Below, one piece after another: positions 1 to 27,799 of a stretch of 64,000 nucleotides of DNA. Position 1 is the stretch's first letter. Every line of letters starts with the position of its first letter. The stretch comes from Actinobacillus seminis. Its GTDB lineage: Bacteria; Pseudomonadota; Gammaproteobacteria; Enterobacterales; Pasteurellaceae. A program made the translations under genes and the position numbers. Location of the stretch: the NCBI RefSeq assembly GCF_002263215.1, contig NZ_NLFK01000001.1, positions 310,001-374,000 of the forward strand. Direction: 5' to 3'. Below the pieces are notes generated by a model. It did not search any database and was not told the DNA's origin. It worked only from the letters and a program-made list of their open reading frames with translations.

Positions 1-826
1 ACTAAAAGAGATACCCGATGCGATATTTTCCGGCAATTTACCGACAATTTTCCAAGTACCGTTTTTTCCAAGTAATGTTATCTTTGCCAATTGTTCCTAA
101 TTCTGTGGTTGGAGTACGTAAGCCGGCTTTTATTTCACCATTCACGACTAACAATGTACCATCTTTCAAGCCAACCACTGCACCGGCACGCGGTAAGAAT
201 GGGAATATACCCTCATTACGCCATACATTGGTCGCAGGTTCATAGCTTGCGATTTCCGGCGAAAAGAAGAAATCTTGTGCGCGCAGATTGAAATAAGAAT
301 CAAATATCGCTTTTTCTTTCTCTTTATCACCACCTGCGGAACCAACATCTTGAAATAGAACATTCCAGATTTCTTGATTTACTCCTCCAACAAAATAGAT
401 TTTTTTGCTATCTGCAACCGCACTTGTTCCCGCCGTTGCCCCTTTTGGTGAACGAGTTTGTAATTTTGTCCAAGTATTGTTAGCCGGATCATAAACATAA
501 GCATCATTAATACTTTCGCTTTTATTATTTACAGTATCTTGAAAACCACCAAATACATAGAGCTTACCGTTCACACCCGCTGCACCGGCTTGATTACGCA
601 CCCCTCCCGGGAATGCGGCAATTTCTTTCCATTGTGCATCTTTTTCTTTTAAATTCAATGCGTAAAATTTATCACCACCGGAGCCTAAGCCTACATAAAT
701 AGTATCACCAATTAATGCTCCGGCACCTCCTTTGATCCCTATGGGCAAATCAGGATAGACGGCTTGTGCAGAAAATGCGGTTAAGCCTAAAATGAATGTT
801 GCTAAAAAAGATTTTGTCATTTTCAT
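1..826 (-). pseudogene. nanM: N-acetylneuraminate epimerase (mutarotase), frameshifted and cut by window edge
   Basis: Periplasmic enzyme that speeds interconversion of alpha- and beta-sialic acid so that the TRAP system can take it up. The start at 826 has an AAGGTG ribosome site and encodes a signal peptide of about 22 residues ending SAQA. Kelch-type repeats follow (YVGLGSGGDKFYAL, YVFGGFQ, YFVGGVN), typical of NanM/YjhT. The frame ends early at position 38 after ITWKK. Removing one A from the A6 run (T6 on the plus strand, 62-67) restores WKNGTWKIVGKLPE and an open frame to the window edge. It lies just downstream of siaT on the same strand. The identity is well supported; whether the frameshift is real or a base-calling error is not known. 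Confidence 0.85.
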
Positions 827-7275: not shown

Positions 7276-8153
7276 ATGAAAAACTTAAAAGGCATTTTTA
7301 GTGCTTTATTAGTTTCATTTAATGAAGATGGTTCCATTAATGAAAAAGGGCTGCGCCAAATTATCCGTCATAATATTGATAAAATGAAAGTAGATGGACT
7401 ATATGTTGGCGGCTCTACCGGTGAAAACTTTATGCTTTCTATATCAGAGAAAAAGAAATTTTCCGTATTGCAAAAGATGAAGCAAAAGACGATATTGCAT
7501 TAATTGCACAAGTAGGTAGTGTAAATTTACATGAAGCGATTGAATTAGGTAAATATGCCACGCAATTAGGTTATGATAGCTTATCTGCCGTGACGCCATT
7601 CTACTACAAATTCAGTTTTGCTGAAATCCAACATTATTACGATACCATCATCGCAGAAACAGGTAATAATATGATTGTATACTCTATTCCGTTCTTAACC
7701 GGCGTGAATATGGGTATTGAACAATTTGGTGAACTTTATAAAAATCCGAAAGTACTCGGCGTTAAATTCACTGCCGGCGACTTCTATTTGTTAGAACGCC
7801 TAAAAAATGCCTATCCAAACCATCTTATTTGGGCCGGCTTTGATGAAATGATGTTACCTGCTGCTGCATTAGGTGTAGATGGTGCTATCGGTAGTACATT
7901 CAATATTAATGGCATTCGAGCTCGTCAAATTTTTGAACTTACTCAATCAGGTAAACTTGAAGAAGCCCGTTCTCTTCAGCACATCACTAACGATTTAATT
8001 GAAGGAATTCTTGCCAATGGTTTATATTTAACGATTAAAGAAATTTTGAAATTACAAGGTGTTGATGCCGGCTATTGTCGTGAACCAATGACCAAAGCGG
8101 CAACGGAACAACAGCTTGCTATCGCAAAAGCGTTGAAAGAGAAATATTTATAA
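7276..8153 (+). pseudogene. nanA: N-acetylneuraminate lyase, single-base frameshift
   Basis: Sialic acid aldolase that splits Neu5Ac into ManNAc and pyruvate, the committed step of catabolism. The first 60 residues ([23 protein letters not shown]) are in one frame, which then runs into an early stop at 7503. Adding one A to the A5 run at 7450-7454 restores [14 protein letters not shown] and an open frame to 8153. The restored protein has 292 residues with the catalytic tyrosine (MIVYSIPF) and Schiff-base lysine (LGVKFTAGD) present. Everything except one base is intact, which suggests a recent change or a homopolymer miscall. Confidence 0.9.
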
Positions 8154-8221: not shown

Positions 8222-9027
8222 ATGCGTCTAATCCCCTTACAAACCGAACAACAAGTGAGCCTTTGGGCTGCTCGTCATATTGTAAATAGAATTAATCATT
8301 TCAAACCGACAAAAGATCGTCCCTTTGTGCTTGGCTTACCTACAGGCGGCACTCCCCTCAAAACTTATAAGGAATTGATTGCACTTTATCAAGCCGGCAA
8401 AGTGAGTTTTGAGCACGTAGTTACTTTCAATATGGACGAATATGTAGGACTGCCGAAAGCACATCCCGAAAGTTATCATTCATTTATGTATAAAAATTTC
8501 TTTAACCACATCAATATTCAAGAAAAAAATATCCATATCCTCAATGGTAATACAGATGATCATGATGAAGAATGTCGCCGTTATGAAGAAAAATAAAATC
8601 TTACGGTAAAATCCATCTATTTATGGGGGGCGTCGGACAAGACGGGCATATTGCATTTAATGAACCGGCTTCATCTTTAGGCTCTCGTACTCGCATTAAA
8701 ACTCTGAACACTGATACGCTTATCGCCAACTCTCGTTTCTTTAATAATGACATTAATCAAGTGCCTAAATATGCCCTCACTATCGGTGTAGCAACGCTAT
8801 TGGATGCCGAAGAAGTAATGATTTTAGCCACCGGTTATAATAAGGCGTTAGCAGTACAAGCCGGTGTAGAGGGAGCAATCAATCACCTTTGGACGATTAG
8901 CGCATTGCAACTGCATCGTCATTTCCTATTAGTATGTGATGAACCGGCACAACAAGAATTGAAAGTAAAAACAGTGAAATATTTCACTGAATTAGAGCAA
9001 CGGGCAATTCATAGTGTATTAAGTTAA
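8222..9027 (+). pseudogene. nagB: Glucosamine-6-phosphate deaminase, single-base frameshift
   Basis: Converts glucosamine-6-phosphate to fructose-6-phosphate and ammonia, the last step of amino sugar use. The 5' part encodes [12 protein letters not shown] and FNMDEYVGL, holding the catalytic Asp of E. coli NagB. It stops at 8596 within RRYEEK. One extra A in the A5 run at 8589-8593 gives [13 protein letters not shown] and joins the 3' part, which carries [17 protein letters not shown] with the active-site Asp, His and Glu. The restored length is 268 residues, near the family norm. GGAGTA lies upstream of the ATG. Confidence 0.9.
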
Positions 9028-25709: not shown

Positions 25710-27799
25710 TTAAACCGGACGAATACTCTCTAAATCCAGAGCTCCGTCAAACTCACGTTGTAATAGCAAAATTTGCGGATCTATTTGCAGCTCTTGCTTC
25801 GCTTGTTCATAAAATTGTTGATACACTTTATGACGATAAGCTGCCGGTGTCATTTTGTCCTCTTGCCTATCGCTGACCAACTGAATCTCCAGCCGAAGCG
25901 GTTTTTGATAAAATTCGCTGATAATTTCTTGTAATTGCTGCGTATTTTTTTCTTTGGACAAATGGGATTTTTTTTCAACCAATCCAAGAACCAGTGTATC
26001 TTCTGTTTGTCGCAAAATAAAACTATGCAACGCCATTTCTTTCAACAAGCCCGAAATTCCGATTTTTTCAATCAAATTTGTCCATTCATCCAGCTGACAA
26101 GCAGTATCAATAATGCGTTGTTGCAACGCTGCGGTCATATTTTGCAAAATCGCCTGCTTAATTTCTGACGGGCGAATAGCTTGTGCCTCTTCCGCCATTT
26201 CCGGATTTATCCATTCCCAACGGTAGGTTTCCGCCGATAGCATTTCTTCAGTATCCGAATTATCGGCGTTATCAATAGGATCTTCATTTTCCGCCTCATC
26301 AGGCGATATCTTAGCATTGGCAACAGAAGATGATGCGGATAAGGTTTTTTCCGCTTTTGTCGGCGGCATATCTACTACAGAAAGTGCGGTCAAATTTTCA
26401 GTTTTTTGCTCTTGGCTATTTTGCGGTGTATTTAACCCGCTAGAGTTTTTTTTTCTAACTCATCCGAGGTCAATATCGTCGGTTTTTCCAGCCGGTTTAA
26501 CGCCTCTAACACATCAAGAGTAGTCGCGGATAGTGCCGCGCTTGAATGAGGCGGTGCCGACGGTTTTTTCGCCGGAGTACTAGCCGGTGTCGGCGTCAAT
26601 TTCGGCTGATATGTAGCTTTTATGGTTTGAGAAACAACCGGCACTTCAAAAATTTGCGAATTTTTGAGTGTACTTTGTGTCGCCACATGGCTTGTATCCG
26701 TTACAGCCGGCGCGGTTTCGGCAAGCAATTTGGGATGAAACGCCAACGCCCGCAATAACACCATTTCCACGCCCATTTGACGATTGGGTGCCAACGCTAC
26801 TTCTTGGCGTCCGTTGAGGATAATTTGATAATAAAATTGCAAATCTTGCGGCGCAATATGTTTGGCAAGAAAACCTAAAGGCTGCTGTTCGTCAATATTA
26901 CTCGGCAATAATTGCAGCATGGCAATGTGATATAAATTTTCGGCAACCGCCGCCAATAATCTATCCCAATCCGCACCACGCTCACCCGCTTGTCGTACCG
27001 CTTTCATCAAGGCTTCGCCATTGCCCGCCTGCAACGCATATAAAATCTCAATCGGTTGATTATCATCCAATAATCCCAACATCTGATTGACAACCTCTTT
27101 GCTCACTCGACCATTTCCCATGGCAATGGCTTGATCGGTTAAACTAAGGCTGTCGCGCAAACTTCCCTCTGCCGCTTTGGCTAATTTCTCCACTGCCAAC
27201 TCGTCAAAAGCAATATTTTCTTGCGTTAAAATATGCGCTAAATGTTGAGCAATTTGCGTCTGTTCCAGCGCTTTTAGATGAAATTGCATACAGCGGGATA
27301 AAATGGTTACTGGCAATTTTTGCGGATCAGTAGTCGCCAGCAAAAATTTGACATATTCCGGCGGTTCTTCCAAGGTTTTCAACAAGGCATTGAAAGAATG
27401 CCGCGACAGCATATGCACTTCGTCGATCAAGTAGACTTTATATCGCCCCTGCGCCGGTTTATATTGCACATTATCCAGCAATTCCCGCGTATCTTCCACT
27501 TTGGTACGAGACGCCGCGTCAATCTCGATCAGATCAATAAATCTTCCTTCTTCAATGGCTTTACAATGTACACAAACGCCACAAGGTTCAGCACTGACGC
27601 CTTGCTCACAATTCAATCCTTTAGCAAAAAGGCGAGCAATAGAGGTTTTGCCCACGCCACGAGTACCGGAAAACAAATAAGCATGGTGCAAGCGATTTTC
27701 ACGCAAGCTATTAGCAAGCGCGGTCAGCACGGGAGCTTGTCCGACAACTTCCGCAAAGGTTTTTGGCCGCCATTTTCTTGCTAATACTTGATAACTCAT
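25710..27799 (-). CDS. dnaX: DNA polymerase III tau/gamma subunit, frameshift at an A9 run
   Basis: Clamp-loader ATPase. Residues 1-455 (27799-26432) carry Walker A FSGTRGVGKTS, the zinc cysteines LNC...CGVCVHC, Walker B VYLIDEVHMLS and the SRC motif. That frame ends at TAA (26432-26434) four codons after GAA AAA AAA. A -1 shift on A-AAA-AAA (26446-26454) continues through NSSGLNTPQNSQ into the C-terminal tau domain, ending at 25710. The joined product is 696 residues, close to H. influenzae tau (about 688); the short product would be 455, like gamma. E. coli makes gamma from A-AAA-AAG. Here programmed slippage and a missed A are both possible. Confidence 0.9.
26423..26454 (-). promoter_or_regulatory. 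Candidate -1 frameshift signal in dnaX
   Basis: Nine consecutive A bases on the coding strand contain the slippery heptamer A-AAA-AAA in the correct phase (GAA AAA AAA). Five bases downstream GCGG and CCGC can pair (26423-26440, 10-base loop), and the zero-frame TAA falls in that loop. An upstream Shine-Dalgarno-like stimulator such as in E. coli dnaX is not clear. The stem is short. Confidence 0.45.

Follow-up and report, generated by a model that had tools for sequence, protein, structure and literature searches.

A conserved A-run in Pasteurellaceae dnaX as a probable site of slippage, and its out-of-frame length in Actinobacillus seminis

Introduction

Does a single dnaX gene in Actinobacillus seminis make both a long (tau) and a short (gamma) clamp-loader protein, and by what kind of recoding would it do so? 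The question is raised by a window of 64,000 nucleotides (the whole stretch of DNA analyzed, positions 310,001 to 374,000 of contig NZ_NLFK01000001.1), in which dnaX is divided between two frames that meet at a run of nine As. The original prediction, made from the letters alone, read the zero frame as gamma and the -1 frame as a tau extension reached by recoding, and named a missed A (A10) as the alternative.

Published work already describes polymerase slippage and ribosomal frameshifting at dnaX, as well as dnaX genes that span two frames. In Escherichia coli and Thermus, tau is described as the templated frame and gamma as the shifted product (PMC5009743; PMC1088944), and in Thermus half of the product is reported to be short (PMC1088944). 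A review places most bacteria beyond the enterobacteria and Thermus among those with no dnaX frameshift signature, which may not make gamma (PMC3290774). Antonov 2013 (PMC3711429) lists 17 two-frame dnaX genes, nine with ten As and that of Chloroherpeton with nine, and regards orthologues that shift in opposite directions as an indication of slippage. As PMC4066793 indicates, searches for longer products, such as that of Antonov 2013, would overlook A10 genes that have a single frame. In Blochmannia, a one-base homopolymer indel in dnaX is thought to be bypassed by slippage (PMC3017870). In searches of an open-licence library, we found nothing on the dnaX run of Pasteurellaceae; most subscription papers and supplements lay outside this search.

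Results

The zero-frame product of the window gene (Table 1) has the DnaX ATPase, lid, and domain III, ends in DELEKKTLAG, and scores above the cut-offs of TIGR02397 and PRK07994. The run reads T9 on the plus strand and A9 in dnaX, where the heptamer A-AAA-AAA is in phase. No stop interrupts the -1 frame over its whole length, and it matches tau domain V (PF12170, E 2.9e-33), so that the two frames between them identify the gene as dnaX (DNA polymerase III gamma/tau). Joined, they come to 696 codons, as many as in congener G002. The run looks like more than a chance feature, being the sole A/T run of 9 to 12 bases across 164 kb of the genome (longer runs being outside that count) and lying at a site that the family conserves. 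These elements of the original prediction, namely the A9, the 455-residue zero frame, the tau frame, the joined length, and the heptamer, were all reproduced from sequence and domain matches. The GC stem that it placed downstream did not hold up: the stem 3' of the window A9 is no better than chance (MFE -8.1 kcal/mol, z -0.42, 66 of 200 shuffles folding at least as well), and a hairpin upstream of the run was unsupported too. The parallel that it drew with E. coli and Thermus turned out to be inverted, with the window templating gamma and needing a shift for tau, whereas the published accounts have it the other way around (PMC5009743; PMC1088944).

Table 1. Features of the dnaX locus, in window coordinates
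Feature	Position	Strand	Basis
A9 slippery run (A10 in the two congeners compared)	26446..26454	-	sequence
dnaX zero frame, 455 codons, gamma-like product	26432..27799	-	ORF and domain matches
Tau part, -1 frame, 249 codons between stops, domain V at end	25713..26459	-	PF12170 match
TAA ending the zero (A9) frame; fifth codon counted from that with the first post-run base	26432..26434	-	
TAG in the third (A11-type) frame, second post-run codon; same place as the relatives' conserved stop	26440..26442	-	

We read dnaX from the 140 Pasteurellaceae genomes returned by our search; totals combine a table of 137 genes with the three that it lacks, G012, G103, and G104, and with a separate reading of G037, a table gene that fell outside the codon range, and G003 and G133 were kept in all counts despite their poor-looking assemblies. 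A run of at least eight As stands at the site in 100 of the 140 genes and in 38 of 43 genera (96/137 in the table plus the four added). Of these 100 runs, 91 leave tau in frame (84 with A10, six with A11, one with A9), and the run has an out-of-frame length in the other nine (the window genome G000, G003, G007, G008, G010, G018, G024, G070, and G133). Both congeners carry A10, in single dnaX frames of 694 and 696 codons with protein 93% identical. Among named records, A10 is found in Pasteurella bettyae, Aggregatibacter segnis, Conservatibacter flavescens, Lonepinella koalarum, Actinobacillus vicugnae, Ursidibacter arcticus, and Glaesserella australis, with A12 in Aggregatibacter kilianii and A7 in Haemophilus haemolyticus. 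The A9 of the window thus departs from the usual state of the family, an A10 or A11 that keeps tau in frame. The claim that gamma and tau are recoded from one dnaX gains strongly from the conservation of the site, but its A9 form is not the norm. An uninterrupted frame in relatives that had no conserved slippery run had been named as evidence against recoding; the relatives do have the uninterrupted frame, yet they also conserve the run.

In a tree built from dnaX alone (75 of the 137 family genes plus four enterobacterial rows, with G037 labeled run-less there), every deep branch of Pasteurellaceae carries the run, and out-of-frame lengths appear solely at the tips, with eight changes for nine rows. 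A clade composed of g18 (with H. haemolyticus), g21, and g38 (Rodentibacter) lacks the run, as do a few further rows; overall it is absent from 40/140 genes, including every gene of these three genera. Among the 41 genes outside the main set, an in-phase AAAAAAR, SAAAAAR, or TTTTTTY between codons 380 and 559, with a stop within two codons, was found in two, namely G037 (A9 further along) and G044, and in no g18, g21, or g38 gene. This is no proof that gamma was lost there, because g18 genes keep an A7 that is directly followed by TGA in the one-A-fewer frame. In the ten g18 genes (L144, L152, L155-L160, L162, and L164), the A7, at the position where others carry A10, leads directly into TGACCGCACTT, which resembles the DNA-uptake signal of Pasteurellaceae. 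As a separate observation, L051, titled Chryseobacterium sp., has a dnaX frameshift site of the enterobacterial type, and is probably a mislabeled record or a contaminated assembly.

The frames on either side of tau are closed soon after the run. In the one-A-more frame, which is also the frame of a -1 ribosomal shift, a stop lies exactly at the second codon in 89/100 genes, against a background of 7.1% of 21819 positions in the same genes, and in 32/36 when one gene per genus is counted; binomial figures for these hidden stops assume independent genera, though the genera are related. In the one-A-fewer frame, a stop occurs within 13 codons in 100/100 (background 57%) and within four codons in 74/96 (background 25%). 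Near stops in both alternative frames, as at the Thermus site, are thus present. All three stop codons (TGA, TAA, and TAG) serve as the hidden stop, alongside a wide variety of tau tripeptides, and the rest of the dnaX linker is poorly conserved. Among 31 enterobacterial controls, hand-picked out of 80 loci, the one-A-more-frame stop is present in 30, while the one-A-fewer frame has a stop within 13 codons in 18 and within four codons in two (70 bases read). As the controls keep the first stop and not the second, the first looks like the old ribosomal gamma stop, which, being common to Enterobacterales, gives no pointer to slippage, and the second is special to the long-run genes.

The elements that stimulate ribosomal shifting in enterobacteria show a different distribution. 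A Shine-Dalgarno-like word lies upstream in 4/96 family genes (background 4.5%) versus 30/31 controls, and the mean downstream folding z, from shuffles of single bases, is -0.14 in the family (9/96 below -1.5) versus -1.49 in the controls (14/31 below -1.5). The E. coli-type combination of upstream word and downstream stem was therefore not found, as judged from the window stem and the 96 family genes. The other part of the E. coli pattern, an in-phase heptamer whose -1 frame closes at its second codon, is present in most family genes; in the window, that frame encodes tau and stays open. After the run, 51 of 87 in-frame genes have G, which leaves A-AAA-AAG in phase, and 36 have C or T. The run itself is of at least nine As, as at the Thermus site, in the window and throughout the 91 in-frame family genes, 90 of which have A10 or A11 and one A9.

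Discussion

Its conservation strongly supports the dnaX A-run as a recoding site of Pasteurellaceae. The long pure run, the stops in both other frames, and the missing stimulators match the Thermus design and make slippage by RNA polymerase the most likely mechanism, gamma being the product of slipping. The polymerase would slip on the A10 or A11 template, so that part of the mRNA gained or lost As; messages left in the tau frame would yield tau, and all others would run into a stop within a few codons and yield gamma. The window would have these roles reversed, either by a recent loss of one A or by an assembly error in the longest homopolymer. On an A9 template, the unslipped mRNA would give the 455-residue gamma, and the 696-residue tau would need either an mRNA lengthened by one A or a ribosomal -1 shift on A-AAA-AAA. 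As an overall explanation, polymerase slippage at a conserved site with roles reversed by the window A9 seems to us probable on the sequence comparisons. The out-of-frame genes, if real, would need shifts in different directions.

Could ribosomes do all of this, by -1 frameshifting on A-AAA-AAG or A-AAA-AAA within the run, with RNA polymerase irrelevant? The heptamer is in phase, and the second-codon stop has the E. coli spacing in family genes and controls alike (89/100 and 30/31). However, the run exceeds what a heptamer needs, stops are also over-represented in a frame that no -1 shift reaches (one A fewer), and in 36/87 in-frame genes the run is followed by C or T (compare A-AAA-AAA and A-AAA-AAC as treated in PMC5009743). 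Because the Shine-Dalgarno word and stem are absent from the family genes, we do not favor ribosomal -1 frameshifting over slippage and judge it unlikely to act alone; given the G after the run in 51/87 genes, it may add to slippage. It could also be argued that the site has no function, and that a lysine-rich linker happens to use AAA codons, since AAA makes up 84% of upstream Lys codons in these genes and such linkers tolerate lysine. That the run is pure says nothing here on its own, the genes having been chosen for it. Both hidden stops lie far over background, though, the stop codon and the tau tripeptides vary, and the remaining linker is poorly conserved, and we regard this explanation as highly improbable.

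With polymerase slippage as our preferred mechanism, the next issue is whether the A9 of the window is a real, recent change in length, which we lean slightly towards accepting, or an error of assembly or sequencing. In the latter case, to which we give a little under an even chance, the chromosome would have A10 and tau one open frame, gamma would still arise by slippage, and the two-frame appearance would be an artefact. The missed A of the original prediction is backed by the ten As of both congeners, and the dnaX run is the region's longest homopolymer. Among 2546 runs of at least three bases compared over 164 kb with congeners G001 and G002, the changes private to the window genome are all losses, as undercalling would produce, but they are few (four, with six in G001 and one in G002). 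Six of 69 genes compared with G002 were flagged. Two of these are start-call effects, because an in-frame stop precedes the likely start, and the frame changes are confined to four, dnaX and three genes of an apparent sialic-acid cluster. Against G001, 2/53 were flagged, dnaX and a gene with two in-frame stops that are present in G002 too; the reverse-direction comparisons flagged in-frame stops alone (1/69, 2/54, 1/57, and 1/57) and no frame changes. A general error in A-runs across the assembly, of which A/T-run indels in other genes had been taken as a sign, was considered and set aside, being weakly supported in the 164 kb tested. Strain-level dnaX copies were sought in viral_contigs, where the seven relatives found, at best 61% identical, were not usable.

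The three neighboring broken genes, at window positions 1-826, 7276-8150, and 8222-9024, are intact in G002. They presumably belong to a pathway of sialic-acid use, one of them being mutarotase-like; the DHDPS-family lyase of the cluster scores above its Pfam cut-off, and the glucosamine-phosphate isomerase piece scores below its own (21.6 vs 27 bits). Since two of them (7276-8150 and 8222-9024) differ from G002 by the length of an A-run, in the same direction as dnaX, pathway decay and undercalling are not cleanly separable, and the difference counts in favor of error at dnaX as well.

The other out-of-frame genomes bear on the same issue. In six of them, dnaX is nearly the sole frameshifted gene nearby (Table 2), which speaks against error; in in-frame controls the frameshifted genes near dnaX number 1/17, 0/17, 2/15, 1/10, 0/9, 0/14, and 0/13. 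Two-base changes in length, up and down, also occur, including the A12 of Aggregatibacter kilianii. Two of the nine out-of-frame states are in frameshift-rich assemblies, G003 (L263) with 6/20 and G133 (L279) with 3/13 of the genes compared near dnaX. Given that the out-of-frame states are at the tips of the tree alone, error or short-lived mutations fit better than a stable reversed arrangement.

Table 2. Frameshifted genes near dnaX, dnaX included, in six other genomes with an out-of-frame run
Genome	Loci	Against first sibling	Against second sibling
G007	L182/L264	2/20	1/17
G008	L194/L265	1/21	1/17
G010	L185/L266	2/17	2/19
G018	L123/L270	1/11	1/12
G024	L099/L273	1/8	2/10
G070	L225/L276	1/9	0/8 (dnaX not listed)

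Among known systems, the family site is most like that of Thermus thermophilus, where slippage on A9 is described (PMC1088944, PMC5009743): both have a long pure A-run and near stops in both other frames, and in both tau is templated and gamma the slipped product, which in the family norm is our reading of the sequence. It differs in that the family has A10 or A11, slippage is deduced, and the window A9 templates gamma rather than tau. The ribosomal -1 frameshift of E. coli dnaX, on A-AAA-AAG, occupies the same place in a homologous gene, whereas the family has A10 and not A6G, is without the enterobacterial Shine-Dalgarno word and stem, and keeps a second stop in the other frame. As assembled, the window gene, with gamma in the zero frame and tau in a frame that overlaps it at a poly-A run, resembles the two-frame genes reported in Antonov 2013 (PMC3711429), which have gamma in the zero frame and reach tau by recoding; however, Pasteurellaceae normally have tau in frame, both congeners are single-frame, and the two-frame state of the window may be an assembly error. 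In Blochmannia, unlike the window, the indel is described inside tau, downstream of the gamma site, as a rescue from decay and no switch between gamma and tau (PMC3017870).

How this site arose can be put forward tentatively. An ancestral member of Pasteurellaceae may have exchanged the ribosomal frameshift, still used in Enterobacterales, for polymerase slippage at the same spot, with the old gamma stop kept and a stop in the other frame added. As the tract would also mutate in the DNA, lineages might flip between tau-templated and gamma-templated dnaX, heritably changing the clamp-loader ratio; we regard this scenario as possible but rather doubtful. Pasteurellaceae and Enterobacterales would then offer a natural swap from ribosome-level to polymerase-level recoding with the same output, and one that is directly testable.

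For annotation, such dnaX genes will be recorded as frameshifted or as having a single product. For the biology of the family, the site with its two hidden stops has been kept in 38 of 43 genera, which suggests that gamma is under selection in Pasteurellaceae too. One dnaX gene would make both the long and the short clamp-loader proteins, and the genome of the window would read the short form by default.
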